Part shown: piece after piece, positions 3,390-39,333 of the stretch
How positions within the stretch are numbered: position 1 is the first letter of the stretch
Layout of the letters: every line of letters begins with the position of its first letter
Assembly (NCBI RefSeq): GCF_900170035.1
Contig: NZ_LT828553.1
Coordinates: 8,369-50,452 of the forward strand
From: Desulfamplus magnetovallimortis
GTDB taxonomy: Bacteria; Desulfobacterota; Desulfobacteria; Desulfobacterales; Desulfobacteraceae
Direction of reading: 5' to 3'
DNA: 42,084 nt
Position numbers and translations under genes: made by a program
Notes under the pieces: model-generated
Database searches by the model: none
What the model saw: the letters and a program-made list of their open reading frames with translations, nothing else
Told to the model about the DNA's origin: nothing

Positions 3390-3450
3390 TTTACCGTGGC
3401 AGTGGATAAAATTTCCATCTTTGGTGGTGGCTGTATTACAGTCATGTACG
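3390..3450 (+). repeat. Diverged single unit of the two-hairpin repeat
   Basis: The 61-base unit starts TTTACCGTGG like the array units and ends before TTTAG. Its second hairpin is TGGCTGT-ATT-ACAGTCA, seven pairs including one G-T (G-U in RNA) pair. It is separated from the main array by 200 bp of unrelated sequence. Confidence 0.6.
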
Positions 3451-3650
3451 TTTAGAATTAATTTGCCCATTTGCTTCACCAAAATGACTTTACAATAGCG
3501 TTTTTGATGAAGGTGCCGCAGTAATTCAAGTGTGCTGATACAGTAACCAGATTTGAAAAACAACAACTTTCAGCCAGATAAAGCACTTAAAAAATCGCAA
3601 TTGAAAGCACTTAAAAATCGTTATGGTATGATAAATGCTATAATATTATT

Positions 3651-3989
3651 TTTACCGTGGAAATAGATACATTATTCCCATGTTCGGGGGTGGCTGAATC
3701 ACAGCCATGTCTGTTTACCGTGAAAACACATTCTGTTTTCATGATCGGGGGTGGCCGAAATCTCATTTGGCCATGAGTGTTTACCGTGAAAATAACTATC
3801 ATTTTTATATTTGGGTGTGATTGATACGTAATCATTCATGTCTGTTTACCGTGAAAATGGATACATATTTTCATATTCGGGGGTGGCTGAGTCACAGCCA
3901 TGTCCGTTTACAGTGAAAATGACTATCATTTATCGTGAAAATGACGATCATTTTTATATTGGGGGGTGATTGATACGCAATCATGCCTG
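3651..3989 (+). repeat. Tandem array of ~63-bp two-hairpin units (upstream array)
   Basis: Units begin with TTTACCGTG at 3651, 3714, 3780 and 3845, with a partial unit at 3907 and a further one at about 3929; lengths are 62-66 bases. Two unit types are mixed. Type A has a GGGGGTGGC core with GGCTG/CAGCC arms. Type B has a GGGTGATTGATACG core with TGATT/AATCA arms. Each unit has a first hairpin after the conserved start (for example TGAAAACA 3721-3728 with TGTTTTCA 3734-3741) and a second after the G-run, and most end CATGTCTG-like. The array ends about 165 bp before the sigma54 activator gene. A matching array lies just after that gene. Confidence 0.85.
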
Positions 3990-4057
3990 TTTACTAACAT
4001 CTTTTTTCATATATTCAAAATCGACATCTTATTTCTTTTTCAGAAATTATTGAATCT

Positions 4058-4079
4058 GTCTGAATCAGGATAACCAGGA
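4058..4079 (+). repeat. Dispersed 22-bp repeat 'gamma', copy 1
   Basis: GTCTGAATCAGGATAACCAG plus two more bases is identical to 14677-14698. Here it stands without the large hairpin seen at the second copy. It lies 75 bp upstream of the activator gene. Confidence 0.6.
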
Positions 4080-4154
4080 ATAAAACTTATACTAAACATT
4101 ATATCGATTCTCAATCTTGCAATACTGTAAACAAAGGAAGGAACAGGTTCAACA

Positions 4155-5771
4155 ATGGAAAAAACAATTGCCTTGAATCAACGGCTTTCAGATCTGAAAA
4201 ATCGTCTTGATCAGATTGAATCAGCCTGGACAATTACTGATCATGAAGTGACCCTTGAATTTTTTGTAAAACATATTCCCGAACTGGTCAGGGCGGAACG
4301 GTGCAGTATTTTTGTTGCAGAGCCTGGTATGGAAAAAATTTGGCTGAAATATGGAAGCGGCCTTGAACATCAAAAAATTGAAGCCCCCCGTGAAGGAAGT
4401 ATTGTCGGTGAGTCAATATCCAATGGTACTGTACTCATTGAAAATAACCTTGCCAGTCGTAATGGCTTTCATAATATTTCAGACATGAAAACACAGTTTG
4501 TTACCCGTAATATTATCTGCATCCCCATAAACAGCCTTGTGGGCGGAGAGCGTATCGGAGCAATAGAGGTTCTTAACAAAAAAGATGGAAAAAATTTTGA
4601 CAATGAGGATCTTCAGCTACTTCTCACCATTGAAAAATATCTTGCACTTGCACTGGAAAGTTCTGTAATCAACAATCGACTCAAAAGTATCTCAAACCAG
4701 ATATCCAACAATATTGATTACCTGAATCAGGAGAGCATAGGAAATGTAACTTTTATTGCAAAGAGCGCATCCATGAGAAAACTTCTTGATACAGTTTCCC
4801 GTGTAAGTCGTGTTCCTGTCAATGTGCTTATAACAGGAGAAAGCGGTACCGGAAAAGAGGTGATTGCCCGCCTTATTCATAACAGCAGTGAGAGATATAA
4901 TGGCAGATTTGTTCCTGTCAACTGCTCTTCTATTCCGGAGAACCTCATGGAGAGCGAATTTTTTGGGCATACAAAAGGTGCTTTCACCGGTGCCATTGCA
5001 AATCGAGCAGGTAGGTTTGAAGAGGCAAATAAAGGCTCTCTTTTTCTTGATGAAATTGGTGAGATGCCGCTTATGATTCAACCCAAATTTTTGAGGGTTC
5101 TTCAGGAGAATGAAGGAAGCCGCATAGGCAGCAACACCATTGAACAGTATGATTTTCGCCTTATAAGCGCCACATGCCGTGATTTAAAACAGCTTGTTGA
5201 TGAAGGGGTATTCAGAGAAGATCTCTATTTTCGCCTTTTTTCCGTGGAGATTCATATTCCACCCCTGCGGGAAAGAACAGATGACATAATTCCCCTTGCC
5301 TTGATGTTTTCATCGAGAATATCCACCAGATTTAAGCGCAAAACAGCAGGATTTGACAAGGAGACACTAAAACTCTTTGAGCGTTTTCCCTGGCCAGGCA
5401 ATGTGAGGCAGCTTATACATGAAATTGAACGTCTTATTGCCTTGACTCCTGAAGGTGAAAATCTCTCCATTGAAAACTGTTCATCCCATATACAGGAATT
5501 TAGAGAGGGTAACTATAATGACACTTTTTGCTCATCTGTCAGTTCTTCACTCATTAGCCATTCTGCCATTTGTGCCTCTCAGGATAATAACTTGGTGAAT
5601 ACCTCTTTGAATTTAAAGGACTTTGTCGAAAAATCAGAAAAACTTTACATTGAAAAAATTCTTGAAGAGTGTGGAAACAATAAAACAAAGACTGCCGAAG
5701 CTCTTGGAATCTCAAGGCAGGCACTCTACAAAAAGATGAATCAGTTTGCGCTTTCGGAAAATGCTGCATAA
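4155..5771 (+). CDS. GAF-domain sigma54-dependent transcriptional activator
   Basis: A 538-residue cytosolic enhancer-binding protein. Order: GAF sensory domain about 20-175; sigma54-interaction AAA+ domain about 205-430 with Walker A GESGTGKE at 228, the sigma54-contacting GAFTGA at 275, Walker B LFLDEIGEM near 297-305 and an FPWPGNVRQL segment; and a C-terminal Fis-type helix-turn-helix (KTAEALGISRQALYKKM). It belongs with the NifA/NorR/FhlA type, where a small ligand or another protein acts through the GAF domain; the signal here is unknown. GGAAGG is about 13 bases before the ATG, a rather wide spacing. The gene is framed on both sides by the same tandem repeats, which might be its own binding or RNA control sites; that is inference. 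Confidence 0.92.
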   Translation: MEKTIALNQRLSDLKNRLDQIESAWTITDHEVTLEFFVKHIPELVRAERCSIFVAEPGMEKIWLKYGSGLEHQKIEAPREGSIVGESISNGTVLIENNLASRNGFHNISDMKTQFVTRNIICIPINSLVGGERIGAIEVLNKKDGKNFDNEDLQLLLTIEKYLALALESSVINNRLKSISNQISNNIDYLNQESIGNVTFIAKSASMRKLLDTVSRVSRVPVNVLITGESGTGKEVIARLIHNSSERYNGRFVPVNCSSIPENLMESEFFGHTKGAFTGAIANRAGRFEEANKGSLFLDEIGEMPLMIQPKFLRVLQENEGSRIGSNTIEQYDFRLISATCRDLKQLVDEGVFREDLYFRLFSVEIHIPPLRERTDDIIPLALMFSSRISTRFKRKTAGFDKETLKLFERFPWPGNVRQLIHEIERLIALTPEGENLSIENCSSHIQEFREGNYNDTFCSSVSSSLISHSAICASQDNNLVNTSLNLKDFVEKSEKLYIEKILEECGNNKTKTAEALGISRQALYKKMNQFALSENAA

Positions 5772-5778
5772 ATCCGTT

Positions 5779-5966
5779 TTTACCGTGGAAATAGATACAT
5801 TATTTCCATGATCGGGGGTGGCTGAATGCCGGCCATGACCGTTTACCGTGAAAATGACTATTATGTTTATACTTGGGGTGATTGATACACAAGCATGAAT
5901 GTTTACCATGAAAATGACTATCATTTTTATATTTGGGGTTGATTGATACGTAATCAATCATGCCCG
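5779..5966 (+). repeat. Tandem array of two-hairpin units (downstream array)
   Basis: Three units start at 5779, 5842 and 5902 (63, 60 and 65 bases), in the same orientation as the upstream array, beginning 8 bases after the activator stop codon. Unit 1 is type A: GGAAATA 5787-5793 pairs perfectly with TATTTCC 5801-5807, and its second arms are TGGCTG/CGGCCA with one T-G pair. Units 2 and 3 are type B. In unit 3, AAAATGA 5911-5917 pairs with TCATTTT 5921-5927. The minus-strand open frame across the array (5712-5957) is an artefact of the repeat. Confidence 0.85.
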
Positions 5967-5976
5967 TTTACTGCAT

Positions 5977-11206: not shown

Positions 11207-14200
11207 ATGAAAAAGGGTCTGTTAAACTATTTTTTGCCCCAGAAAAAGGGCATTTTGATCTTCCATTGTATCATTTTTGTTTTTGTTATGGGCATCACCA
11301 TAACAGAGAGGGCTTCAGCCAGTGGAGTCATGATTGGTGCTCAGCTTACAGATGTAAAGAGATTTACAGGAACCTTTTCTATAAAAATCAACACTGATTG
11401 CAGCGACTCTTTGGATGCAGACATCTATTTGCTGGCCTATTTACCGTCTCAAACCCTTATGGTTGAAAGGGATCTTTTCTCGTTGCAGGCAGTCAGTTCG
11501 GAATCCACAGATTTTCAATGGGTTCAGGGTGTCTCCATGTTTGACACATCCGGAAATAATGAATCGCTTGGAAGCTGCGATTGGGTAACCTTCTCCAATG
11601 TTGACTACTCTGTTTTTAGTTCCCGTATCCAAGATACATTTTTAATTGCGTTGCTTGTTAAAAACGGAGGTAACCCCTATGATCCTTCTCTCTGGATTGA
11701 TGCGGGCTTTACTTACATTGTAACAGATCCCCAGGTTCGGGTCCCCGGACAAACCCAGTTTGCATCAGATCAATGGCAGGGAAGGGATGATTCAGAGGTG
11801 TATGTTGATGCTCCTGTTGTGGCTCCTGACGCTTCAGAAGATGCTGACCAGAACAATGATGAAAAAAACGATGGTGATGTTGAGAAGCCTGACATTTACA
11901 AAATATCCGGAAAGCGCATCTATTATGCCAATGGCAGTGCTGACAGGTTTCAGGTGGTGGACATATCCATACCTGAAAATCCGGTTATAATTCACTCTGA
12001 AGCCCTGGAAAACATGCCACTGGATCTCTATGTTGATGGCGGTTATATCATGCTTCTGGAACAGGCAAGTGATAAAAATGAAAGCTATGTTCTCCTAAAG
12101 GTTTTCCATGACAGTGGCTCAAATATAGTAAAGGTGGCCCAACAAAAATATGACAATCTCTATTATATCAATTCGAGGAAATCAGGAGATCATATATTTA
12201 TCACAGCAAGTTCAGCCACACAGGTGTACCATTATGCCATGGCAGATGAGCCTGCTTTTGCTGATGATACAGAACAAGATGCTGCTGATGGTCCAGAACA
12301 AGAGACTGTTGATGGTACAGAAAAAGAGACTGTTGATGGTACAGAAAAAGAGATTGCTGATGGTACAGAAAAAGAGACTGCTGATGCTACAGAAAAAGAG
12401 ACAACAGATTATGCTGATGAGTCAGGTATTGTTGTTGTTGCAGTGGATGTTGAGAATCATGAAGAACCACAGATTCTGGCAAGAAAAAGCTTTTCCGGAT
12501 ATGATTCCGATATATATCTTGATCAGAACTATATGGTTCAGATAGCAAGGGAGAGCTGGCAGACAACCATACTTTATCTGTTTGACTTAAATGATAAAAC
12601 CAATCTTTTTAGCAGTAGCACAGAGATAAAAATTCCCGGGCAGGTACCATCGGAATATCATGTAAATGTTTCCGATGATACTCTGTTTGTTATTTATCGT
12701 AATGAAGATATAAATAAAGGAAGTACACTGAAAATATTTGATCTTGCAGCTTCCGGTGATGATAATGATAAAGAGACAGAACACTCTGTGAAAAAGGCTT
12801 CACTTCAGCCTGTTGAAAAAGGGTCTGTTGAGGGGATTGCCCAGGGCGAAGAGCTATATGCAGCAACATTTACAGGAGACAGAGCATATATAGTAACCTA
12901 TGAGAGACAGGATCCTCTGTGGGTGGTTGATATTTCCGATCATGACTCTCCCATGATTACAGGTGAGCTTGAAGTTCCAGGATGGTCTGAATATATAAGA
13001 TTTTATAATAATCGCCTCATTGCCCTTGGATATGATGACAGTAATGGCAAAAGACTTGTTTCAATAGCTCTTTTTTCAGTTGAAGATCCGTCTGAGCCGC
13101 GACTTCTTGACAGGGTGACTCCTTTGCAGGGAATTGCAGATTACACAAGTTCAGTTGCCATAAGCGATGACAGAGCTTTTTACTTTAACAGTGAATCAGC
13201 TCTTGTGGTCGTGCCAATACAATACTATTCCTCAGAAAGCTATTCCGGCCTTGGGATTGTAAGGATAGACTCTGATTACAACTCTTTTCAATGGAACGAT
13301 TTTGTGCAGTCAAGGTTTTATATGCAGAGAGGAGCTGAGGCAGACTCAAGTGGTGATCTTCTGGTGGGTATGGGAGATGCGGCACTTAACACCATTGATA
13401 TCTCGTCCTCAAGACCGGTGGTGCTTGGAGAGTTAAGGCTTGCCTATAATGTTGAAAAAATAGCATTGTCAGAAAATGACACTTCCATTTTTGCTGTTGG
13501 AGGAGATTACTACTACAACAACACATCTGATCTGATGCGTTTTGACATGACAGCGATAAAGAACCAGGATCAAGGGACAACTGTTTCAGGTCAGGAGTCA
13601 GGTGTTATAACTCCGGTGGAGGTTGTTGATTCTGAACTCTTGTATCCCAACATTGTAATGCCAGAGAGTAAGGAAGATAAGGGACTGCTCTTTTCCTGGA
13701 GTTCTTCTGCTTTCAGGTGCTTCAATCCCGGAACAATGACAACAGAAAAAATTATAAAATTTGACAATGAATATAGCTGGATGGTTTCAGATATCATTTA
13801 TCAAAATGAGATGCTCTACTTTGCAGTTAGGGATTATGACTCAATAGTTATTTATGATTCAGAAAATTACACTTCCACTGACGTTTATGAAGAGCCTGAG
13901 CCATCTTTGTACAGAGAAATCTACAGCATGGCTACAACATTGAGGGTGTATGACTGTAATGGAAGCAGTACCCCTGAGAAACTGCCTGAACTCTCTATTC
14001 CTGGTGAACCAGTGGCAATTTTTGACGATGACAGACTTATTACTGTGGAAAACAGTTATTACTACTACCCTTACCCTCTTTACGATTATAGTTCCGATTC
14101 AACTATATCTAATGATACAGATGGCATGGATGAGTATATTCCTGGTATCAGAATCAATGCACTTGATCTTTCAAGGGATGCTGCCGTGCTTGATGTAACA

Positions 14201-14617
14201 CTATTCTTTGATCAGGAAACCTACGGCTATTCACAGGTTATATGTGATGAAGAAAATGTTTATATTGTATCGCAACAGAATGAAAATACAACTGTAAGAA
14301 AACTTGATCCTGATACCCTTGAAATTGTAAGTGAATACTCCATAAGCGGTAACCTATCACCGGTCAAGGCATCAAACGGTATTGTGGTTTTTACAGAAAG
14401 CGTCTCTTATCCCTATTGGGAAGTTGCATATGATTTATGTGTCCCTTACTGGAACAACCAGGAGATCAGGGTGTTTGACCTTTCTGAAAGCAGTGCAGAA
14501 GAGCTTTTGAATGTTTCAACAGATTACTATATTTCAAAGGAAAATGTTGGTATAACTGATACCGAGATTTATATGGCAAATGGATATAAGGGGATTTCCA
14601 TGATTCCTTTTGAATAA
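11207..14617 (+). CDS. Secreted beta-propeller protein
   Basis: 1136 residues. The signal peptide is about 1-38 (KKG basic start, hydrophobic core, end ERASA). GGGGAG sits 8 bases before the ATG. An N-terminal domain about 39-190 has two cysteines. From about 225 to the end the protein repeats beta-propeller blades with VVDISDHDSPMITGELEVPG and similar motifs, typical of the beta-propeller family Pfam PF09826. Such proteins are extracellular and of unknown function. An acidic stretch of six 8-residue DGTEKETV-like repeats (about 353-400) interrupts one blade, suggesting a surface loop. It lies between the CsgG-like gene and the large carboxypeptidase-regulatory repeat gene, all on the same strand. 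I see no enzyme motif. Confidence 0.8.
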   Translation: MKKGLLNYFLPQKKGILIFHCIIFVFVMGITITERASASGVMIGAQLTDVKRFTGTFSIKINTDCSDSLDADIYLLAYLPSQTLMVERDLFSLQAVSSESTDFQWVQGVSMFDTSGNNESLGSCDWVTFSNVDYSVFSSRIQDTFLIALLVKNGGNPYDPSLWIDAGFTYIVTDPQVRVPGQTQFASDQWQGRDDSEVYVDAPVVAPDASEDADQNNDEKNDGDVEKPDIYKISGKRIYYANGSADRFQVVDISIPENPVIIHSEALENMPLDLYVDGGYIMLLEQASDKNESYVLLKVFHDSGSNIVKVAQQKYDNLYYINSRKSGDHIFITASSATQVYHYAMADEPAFADDTEQDAADGPEQETVDGTEKETVDGTEKEIADGTEKETADATEKETTDYADESGIVVVAVDVENHEEPQILARKSFSGYDSDIYLDQNYMVQIARESWQTTILYLFDLNDKTNLFSSSTEIKIPGQVPSEYHVNVSDDTLFVIYRNEDINKGSTLKIFDLAASGDDNDKETEHSVKKASLQPVEKGSVEGIAQGEELYAATFTGDRAYIVTYERQDPLWVVDISDHDSPMITGELEVPGWSEYIRFYNNRLIALGYDDSNGKRLVSIALFSVEDPSEPRLLDRVTPLQGIADYTSSVAISDDRAFYFNSESALVVVPIQYYSSESYSGLGIVRIDSDYNSFQWNDFVQSRFYMQRGAEADSSGDLLVGMGDAALNTIDISSSRPVVLGELRLAYNVEKIALSENDTSIFAVGGDYYYNNTSDLMRFDMTAIKNQDQGTTVSGQESGVITPVEVVDSELLYPNIVMPESKEDKGLLFSWSSSAFRCFNPGTMTTEKIIKFDNEYSWMVSDIIYQNEMLYFAVRDYDSIVIYDSENYTSTDVYEEPEPSLYREIYSMATTLRVYDCNGSSTPEKLPELSIPGEPVAIFDDDRLITVENSYYYYPYPLYDYSSDSTISNDTDGMDEYIPGIRINALDLSRDAAVLDVTLFFDQETYGYSQVICDEENVYIVSQQNENTTVRKLDPDTLEIVSEYSISGNLSPVKASNGIVVFTESVSYPYWEVAYDLCVPYWNNQEIRVFDLSESSAEELLNVSTDYYISKENVGITDTEIYMANGYKGISMIPFE
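12263..12406 (+). repeat. Six 24-bp in-frame repeats coding acidic octapeptides
   Basis: Units start at 12263, 12287, 12311, 12335, 12359 and 12383. The consensus GATGGTACAGAAAAAGAGAC plus four bases encodes DGTEKETV/A. The middle units differ by one or two bases, so the tract is young or prone to slippage. It encodes a very acidic loop in the beta-propeller protein. Confidence 0.85.
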
Positions 14618-26756: not shown

Positions 26757-26942
26757 TAGGCATCTTTCATATCAACTCAAAAGTAGTTTACACTTTTGGG
26801 GAGATATTGAACTGATTAAAGGATTTAAGGATTAACATGATTTAAAAATCAGGGTAATCCCTTAATCATGAAAATCATGGTTCAAAAAAATGTAAATGAA
26901 TAATGTCTATAATCCCATTAAAAAATGGAAATGATGATGCCG
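26757..26942 (+). mobile_element. Miniature palindromic element, CGGCATC family, copy 1
   Basis: The left end AGGCATCTTTCAT (from 26758) and the right end AAATGATGATGCCG (to 26942) are imperfect terminal repeats. Inside are TTTACACTTTT…TTGAAC and GGTTCAAAAAAATGTAAA. The core between TTGAAC and GGTTCAA matches the reverse complement of the core in the copy at 38997. It lies between the PorV-like gene and the next gene and accounts for most of that 225-bp gap. No coding capacity. Confidence 0.6.
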
Positions 26943-34369: not shown

Positions 34370-34932
34370 TAAAACCAGCCATATTTTCCAGATGATTCAA
34401 AGTGGTGAGTTTTACTTTATCTCAAGACCAAGAAGATTTGGCAAATCCCTTACGGTTTCCACGTTAAAATGCCTGTTTCAGGGTCAGAAAGAGCTGTTTG
34501 AGGGTCTTTGGATTGCAAAATTTTGGAGTTTTAAAAGGTATTGATGTGATGCCATTGCTCCGCCTGGTATTTATAACCGGGGTTTCCAAATTCAGTCAGG
34601 TATCAATATTCTCGGAGCTGAACAATCTTACTGACCTTACAATGCACCGTGAATATGCTGATATGATGGGCTACACCAGAAATGAGCTTGAAAAATTCTT
34701 TAATAATCATATTCAAGCATTTGCCATTGAAACAGGCGAAGATTCAGATAGCATCCTTGACAAATTGCGTCTATATTACGATGGTATTCGTTTTTCTGAA
34801 AAAGATATCCGTGTCTATAATCCCTATTCCGTTATTTTATCACTTGATGAAAAAAGATTTAAAAAATACTGGTTTGAGACCGACACACCAACCTTTCTCA
34901 TAAATCTGCTTAAGGAAGAAGAGTGGCATTTT

Positions 34933-35040
34933 CGGCATCCTTCATATCATGCAGAAAGTACTTTACACTTTCCGGAACAGGCTGCCAGAAAAATCGGCAT
35001 TGTGTTCAGGAAAATGTAAACTGGCAAATGAAAGATGCCG
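34933..35040 (+). mobile_element. 108-bp miniature element, CGGCATC family, with CATTTT duplication
   Basis: The terminal repeats CGGCATCCTTCAT and ATGAAAGATGCCG (12 of 13 pair) are flanked by CATTTT at 34927-34932 and 35041-35046. Excision with one CATTTT restores the gene's EEWHFPVIEN. The inside holds CTTTACACTTTCCGGAAC and its counterpart GTTCAGGAAAATGTAAAC. This clean insertion defines the family also seen at 26757-26942 and 38997-39250. Its length is a multiple of three, but it introduces a stop codon. Confidence 0.85.
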
Positions 35041-38996: not shown

Positions 38997-39250
38997 CGGC
39001 ATCTTTCATTTATCTGTTTACACTTTTTTTGAACTATGATTTTCATGATTAAGGGATTATCCTGATTTTTCATAATGTTAATCCTCAAATCCTTTAATCA
39101 TGGTTCAAAATTTCAAAAAAATGTAAACTACTGTACTGTCAAGACTTAATTTTAGGGTTATCTGCAACGTAGAGACAAGGCATGCCTTGTCTCTACAATT
39201 AAACGAACCCTAATTTTTAGCTTTGACAATGCACTACTTTGAATTGATAT
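38997..39250 (+). mobile_element. Miniature element, CGGCATC family, copy 3, broken by a nested element
   Basis: The left end CGGCATCTTTCATTT starts at 38997, then GTTTACACTTTTTTTGAAC, a palindromic core, GGTTCAAAAT and AAAAAAATGTAAAC. At TA (39129) a second element of 108 bp interrupts it. After that, CTTTGAATTGATAT continues what the copy at 26757 predicts. The right terminal repeat is missing, replaced by the beta repeat from 39251. Together these fill the gap between the last protease gene and the response regulator. Confidence 0.6.
39129..39236 (+). mobile_element. Nested 108-bp TA-flanked miniature element
   Basis: The terminal regions TACTGTACTGTCAAGAC and, reverse-complemented, TAGTGCATTGTCAAAGC match at 23 of 31 positions out to AGGGTT. 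The centre (39169-39196) is a perfect 28-bp palindrome, with half-site GTAGAGACAAGGCA. TA is present at both outer edges, and joining across it restores the host repeat. A lone end of the same type (TAGTACGTTGTCAAAGC) occurs at 33927-33943. Confidence 0.7.
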
Positions 39251-39333
39251 AACGTACATGGCTGATGACCGCCACAATCGAAGAGATGAAAGTCGTTTTA
39301 AAAACAGGATGTTACAGAGACTTTCATATAAAC
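39251..39333 (+). repeat. Dispersed palindromic repeat 'beta', copy 3
   Basis: Begins AACGTACATGGCTGATGACC and contains GCCACAATCGAAGAGATGAA. ATGAAAGTC near 39285 pairs with GACTTTCAT near 39319. It lies 115 bp upstream of the response-regulator start, as copy 2 lies upstream of the cyclase. Confidence 0.65.

Follow-up and report, generated by a model that had tools for sequence, protein, structure and literature searches.

A short two-hairpin repeat of Desulfamplus magnetovallimortis is probably a gene-less mobile element that inserts at TTTA

The PATEs of Haloquadratum walsbyi are the closest known kind to the repeat units described here, for which we infer the cognate enzyme. PATEs are related to IS605-type transposons; according to the parts of their description consulted, they have no inverted ends, carry palindromes near their termini, cause no target duplication and contain no transposase gene, and some are 52-bp forms made of the termini only (PMC3119063). 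Their palindromes are attacked by inverted-repeat elements of about 110 bp (SMR-A), likewise without duplication, and 177 and 194 PATEs are reported per genome (PMC3119063). In the IS200/IS605 elements, a guide tetranucleotide located 5' of each hairpin matches the cleavage site (PMC8266576). REP, BIME and REPIN sequences, which are associated with TnpA-REP, form a further group for comparison. No description of the present repeat was found in the portion of the literature that the search reached.

The window, i.e., the whole 42,084-nt stretch of DNA analysed, contains nine two-hairpin units and one fragment, all on the + strand. As the first-pass annotation had noticed, they lie beside a gene for a sigma54-dependent activator (GAF, Sigma54_activat and Fis-type HTH; 4155-5771, + strand), a neighbour that is outside the element. 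The activator protein matched only Treponema/Spirochaetales MAGs and a Rufibacter, at 34-36%, in a search from which the window's own records may be missing. A single unit with an aberrant hairpin 1 extends from TTTA to GTTTA at 3390-3454. The first array consists of units at 3651-3717, 3714-3783 (arms GAAAACA/TGTTTTC and GGCC-AAAT/ATTT-GGCC), 3780-3848, 3845-3910 (arms TGGCTG/CAGCCA) and 3929-3993, the last with GTTTA at its end; a 22-nt left-end fragment of a further unit (3907-3928) has apparently been cut into by the unit at 3929. The second array comprises units at 5779-5845, 5842-5905 (with decayed hairpin arms) and 5902-5970. Adjoining units of an array in the window have exactly one TTTA in common, so that the second unit of the first array has a TTTA in common with both of its neighbours. 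A 63-base period, and with it in-phase DNA binding, had been proposed for these units; however, the start-to-start distance in the window varies from 60 to 66 bases, and helical phasing is therefore unsupported. Rfam gave no matches at the gathering score within the window.

The unit ends are sharp, with TTTA followed by CCGTG on the left and CATGNCC-GTTTA on the right, and the flanks are unconserved. Conservation starts at TTTA (76 first units) and stops at GTTTA (75 last units); nearly all of the 76 first units begin with TTTA, in a single orientation. Copies sit 3' of TTTA in one orientation, and each ends in its own TTTA. The boundaries and the consensus indicate that the terminal sequences, TTTACCGTG and CATGNCCGTTTA, form no terminal inverted repeats. 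Most units are 64-70 nt long including both TTTA, too short for a transposase gene. T or C precedes the left TTTA in 120 of 135 clusters, compared with 62% for intergenic TTTA. The right TTTA is followed by C in 63 of 113 clusters (44 of 94 without the 19 in which a decayed unit comes next) against a background of 17%. The mobile-element model has no account of this preference for C, which is unexplained and is counted against the model.

With up to one mismatch allowed, the 6.68-Mb genome contains 377 occurrences of the 15-mer GTTTACCGTGAAAAT from the unit start, compared with two of a reversed control. A profile built on the window units and widened on contig C1 was applied at E <= 0.01 to the whole of C1 (1,093,269 bases), the whole of C2 and 120 kb of C3, together 1.88 Mb or 28% of the genome. 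It gave 250 matches (C1, 138; C2, 93; C3 part, 19), of which 180 were near full length (105 on C1, 75 on C2 and the C3 part). On C1, the 95 clusters comprised 69 single units, 15 doubles, 7 triples, 3 of four and 1 of six; on C2 and the C3 part, the 76 clusters comprised 50 singles, 18 doubles, 6 triples and 2 of four. The window holds one single, one cluster of five and one of three.

The units resemble PATEs in that they lack terminal inverted repeats, have palindromes near both termini and contain no transposase gene, and in that they are attacked in hairpin 1 by an inverted-repeat element, in this case a 105-106-bp MITE. The claim of the first-pass annotation that no element of this design had been described stands for the repeat itself in the literature reached, but most of the design is shared with PATEs (PMC3119063). 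As far as the consulted parts of that source go, the two differ in several respects: the MITE leaves an 8-bp duplication whereas SMR-A leaves none; the units end in their target word and stack head-to-tail; 250 unit matches lie in 28% of one genome, compared with 177 and 194 PATEs per genome; and, in the incomplete genomes of the genus, no co-resident IS200/IS605 with unit-like ends was found at the Y1 matches. Like IS200/IS605 elements, the units have a strand-specific target 5' of the element and a hairpin at each end, and they insert in one orientation 3' of a fixed word; half of the gapless empty sites described below carry a changed TTTA. However, judged by eye against the guide rule in the portion of PMC8266576 consulted, they have no canonical guide words; TTTA is separated from hairpin 1 by CC alone, and a G run lies at hairpin 2. 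REP, BIME and REPIN sequences are similarly short, intergenic, palindromic, high-copy and gene-less. In contrast to what the consulted parts of PMC3733652, PMC3116915 and PMC8266576 describe for them, the units have no GTAG tag and no RAYT tied to them, and they form direct head-to-tail arrays rather than mainly inverted pairs.

The hairpins were examined in three alignments: A1, with 76 units hand-picked from 109 listed ones (many weaker units were excluded); A3, with all 109, the full set of distinct units with clean ends from C1 and the window; and A2, with 48 picked units from eight genomes (G000 and window 12, G001 7, G002 3, G006 8, G008 8, G159 5, G338 4 and G062 1), excluding seven long-loop units of G062 and identical copies. 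RNAalifold found both hairpins unprompted on A1. Paired cells amounted to 91.1% in A1 (86.4% shuffled), 89.0% in A3 (84.9% shuffled, 38-53% when slid) and 96.5% in A2 (33-58% when slid). Two-sided changes numbered 120 in A1 (45 +/- 10 shuffled), 159 in A3 (52 +/- 20) and 75 in A2 (24.7 +/- 4.7), although many of them are subfamily differences and therefore not independent, so that subfamily ancestry inflates the counts. The covariation score of A3 was 0.290, against 0.209 shuffled. Two of the five A3 measures do not beat the shuffles: pairs with two-sided change (9 vs 7.5, reached in 125 of 500 shuffles) and extra pair types (33 vs 31.4, reached in 127 of 500). The former measure was 7 vs 5.7 in A2, reached in 78 of 500 shuffles. 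The arms therefore covary as had been claimed, but pairing is not kept in every unit; that at 5842, for example, has broken arms.

G-T cells far exceed A-C cells (272 vs 15 in A1, with two nearly fixed pairs, columns 7-31 and 40-64, giving about half of the G-T cells; 397 vs 42 in A3; 107 vs 9 in A2), and the contrast is weaker when pair positions are counted (18 vs 9, 19 vs 17 and 11 vs 7, respectively). The cell counts indicate that the strand reading TTTACC...GTTTA is the folded one. Energy by itself would have left this hidden: folded as DNA, the two strands of five window units have similar energies. The natural covariation could be used to map what the enzyme must recognise in each hairpin.

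These hairpins bear on the idea that the units are cassettes that a site-specific recombinase, of the tyrosine or serine type, mobilises through a TTTA(C) core. Direct TTTA at both ends, a fixed orientation, head-to-tail stacking and the excess of C following the target would all suit a shared core. However, recombination at a double-stranded core would not require a pair of covarying hairpins whose G-T pairs fall on one strand, and we consider this origin unlikely.

The whole is probably best explained by a mobile element that has no gene, measures about 60 bases, carries two end hairpins and is moved in trans. That the units are copies of a mobile element and that the arrays grow by serial insertion is very probable. 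In the proposed mechanism, the TTTACC...GTTTA strand would fold into the two end hairpins, and movement would pass through a single-stranded intermediate, with cleavage and joining behind TTTA carried out by a HUH transposase of the tyrosine type (Y1, IS200/IS605-like) supplied in trans. New copies enter at the TTTA of resident copies, giving head-to-tail arrays. A TTTA that is carried by each copy and serially inserted into explains the head-to-tail order, the unlike members and the common TTTA. Mean identity was 0.760 for array neighbours and 0.763 between arrays on C1 and the window (41 pairs, fraction 0.57), and 0.753 and 0.772, respectively, on C2 and the C3 part (25 pairs, fraction 0.86). 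Since units within an array resemble their neighbours no more than they resemble units of different arrays, the arrays point to serial insertion, and tandem duplication as their origin is ruled out (41 and 25 pairs). The alternative of a neutral satellite, raised in the first-pass annotation, also fails here, as array neighbours are not duplicates of one another. No clusters of opposite orientation lay within 150 bp of each other, either on C1 and the window or on C2 and the C3 part. The units document, in hundreds of natural copies, repeated insertion in a fixed orientation into a single short word.

Empty sites were sought by joining the flanks of 96 clean-ended clusters (78 of 174 clusters were dropped because their ends were unclear) and searching for them elsewhere in 1.92 Mb; 960 random intergenic segments, excised at TTTA in the same way, served as controls. 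The joined flanks gave 10 spanning matches with 8 gapless junctions, compared with 72 spanning matches and no gapless junction for the controls. In four of the eight gapless cases TTTA was intact in the best empty copies. Three sites, C1:98137 (25 matches, 18 gapless), C3:111766 (22 matches, 18 gapless) and C2:182280 (41 matches, 37 gapless), lie in other dispersed repeats, with one TTTA at the position of the unit. The site at C1:493595 keeps TTTA, yet it is gapless in only 1 of 71 matches. Empty copies at C1:38605, 142027, 569164 and 929867, either the best ones or most of them, deviate from TTTA by one or two bases, which is counted against the model; C1:929867 sits in locally repeated sequence. 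Firm cases number three or four, and the clearest unoccupied sites hold a single TTTA.

Whether a Y1 enzyme moves the units is an evenly balanced question. In the genus, 25 Y1 matches were found in 8 of 10 genomes. None had unit-like ends in flanks of up to 1.5 kb, where two partial matches had E values of 0.6 and 0.94. No full-length Y1 match was found in the unit-bearing G001, G002 and G008, whose assemblies are 63-74% complete. A search of 1.92 Mb for an autonomous copy (left end, ORF, right end) returned nine pairs, each of them, to the extent inspected, weak or interrupted by other repeats. The one intact Y1 gene of G000 belongs to an IS200 (L031). By eye, this IS200 has similar TTTA/GTTTA end words, while its hairpins differ in sequence from those of the units and its hairpin 1 starts about 22 nt after TTTA, compared with 2 nt in the units. 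The TnpA of an IS200 in G151 is 72% identical to that of L031, and four fetched copies of this element have TTTAT on the left and GTTTAGT on the right, in differing flanks. These ends set a precedent for TTTA/GTTTA sites in the taxonomic family; they are not proof that such an enzyme moves the units, because the hairpins differ and guide words are absent from the usual place. The IS200s of G154, G004 and G007 show no TTTA ends. Given that no transposase gene with unit ends was found in the flanks and contigs searched and that guide words are not in the usual place, we infer the enzyme. Naming it would test the lower size limit of a single-strand transposon.

A Y1 profile built on eight proteins found nothing at the unit-flanking loci L179-L208 and L243-L266 and recovered two IS200 controls; it missed the RAYT remnant L032, so RAYT-like genes would escape it. 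The TnpB family (PF07282) gave no match at E 0.001. IS91/Y2 was rejected as the enzyme, with partial matches only; one of these (L211) lies about 1.4 kb from a unit, a proximity taken as coincidence because of the unit copy number.

The units could instead be REP/BIME-type elements mobilised by a REP-associated transposase (TnpA-REP/RAYT). This enzyme belongs to the same superfamily, the units share the high copy number, intergenic location and palindromes of such elements, and G000 does contain RAYT-like remnants. However, these three homologous REP-associated-type Y1 remnants (L032, L033 and L034, on C8 and C10; 594-636 aligned bases) lie in stretches ending in their own GGGGTCGGGCCA-type inverted ends, with no units within 1.5 kb, and the unit consensus lacks a GTAG/CGTC-type tag. 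RAYT was accordingly rejected as the partner, and we regard a REP/BIME origin as quite unlikely.

A covariance-model search of related genomes, which the first-pass annotation had proposed, extended the distribution beyond one genome. Among ten genomes of the genus, model R1 gave 142-150 matches among the best 150 candidates scored in five (the own genome included), one match in another and none in the remaining four. With stricter filters and the best 36 candidates scored per genome, 8 of 145 relatives had matches, namely five of the genus and G159, G062 and G338 from other families of the order. The last three carry divergent variants of the unit design with other hairpin-2 arms, and many of their weaker matches have E above 0.01; G338 and G062 each have one head-to-tail pair with a single TTTA between the two units. 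A strict 19-base pattern matched only G000 and G001 among 389 genomes of the class, but it misses known carriers and is therefore a weak negative. The viral contigs gave one exact pattern match, which is not a unit, and plasmids and phages gave no match. We suggest tentatively that the units represent an order-wide, undescribed family of minimal single-strand elements that carry their own landing site, stack for that reason into ordered head-to-tail arrays and use an enzyme outside the known IS200/IS605 guide rule. In G062, seven units (L244, L251, L254, L257, L260, L263 and L266) have enlarged hairpin-1 loops, with total lengths of 79-120 bases, and some of the loops are short internal repeats.

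Two of these genomes show recent movement, with identical copies in different flanks. In G002, 68 identical bases are common to six fetched loci, whose flanks are unrelated except for two with another unit at the right; in G159, 58 identical bases are common to four loci without flank similarity. ATC follows the right TTTA in all four identical G159 copies, which places the right TTTA inside the element there and argues against a target duplication of TTTA. TTTA on both sides of single copies, as seen in G000, would also be expected of a conventional MITE whose DDE transposase duplicates TTTA, but this origin is very unlikely in view of these shared bases, the absence of terminal inverted repeats and the single orientation in which nearly all first units begin with TTTA.

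By a simple in-house gene caller, 157 of 171 clusters are intergenic (C1, 87 of 95; C2, 57 of 62; C3 part, 13 of 14), compared with about 23 expected at random, and the units adjoin many different genes across C1, C2 and the C3 part; the special tie to the sigma54 activator that had been suspected is unsupported. Where the flanking genes run in the same direction, 75 clusters have the folded strand antisense and 39 have it sense (p about 0.001), whereas YTTTA is similarly common on either strand (1272 sense, 1259 antisense). Such a bias would be expected if hairpins in mRNA are selected against, and it speaks against a regulatory RNA read in sense. Of the earlier proposal of selection on an RNA or single-stranded DNA structure, the folded single strand is borne out by covariation and by the strand-specific G-T excess, but the sense regulatory RNA is not. 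No clear trend with replication strand was seen by eye. A regulatory array providing binding sites or RNA of the activator, with its structure under selection, would fit arrays that flank the activator gene and covary, but it is ruled out by the hundreds of copies beside other genes genome-wide and by the empty sites, runs counter to the antisense bias and variable spacing, and is extremely improbable. In the mobile-element reading, the arrays flanking the activator gene are insertions like any other, not binding sites of the activator. Covarying hairpins repeated in tandem do not necessarily signal a regulatory or RNA array: a mobile element that brings its target along also produces such an array.

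Other repeats occur in this genome besides the units. The palindromic MITE (GGCATCCTTCAT...ATGAAGGATGCC) is a second dispersed repeat, with 95 copies in C1, C2, the C3 part and the window; 64 of them are 105-106 bp long and 60 have an 8-bp target duplication. The window copy (34933-35039) overlaps the end of an ORF at 34498-35019. Visual inspection of 21 candidate rows places about 10 of the 95 copies inside hairpin 1 of two-hairpin units, similar to SMR-A in the PATEs as described in the consulted parts of their report; such sites include C1:103937, 147696, 345465, 363870, 739717, 877412 and 1063078, and C2:315465 and 426156. Conversely, at C2:182280 a two-hairpin unit lies inside a repeat resembling the MITE, at an internal CTTTA. 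Further dispersed repeat families that match unit flanks are represented in the window at 39005-39132, 26759-26893, 39248-39333 and 2436-2488. The window also contains a 24-bp tandem repeat in six copies (12259-12402) within a large gene at 11207-14617.
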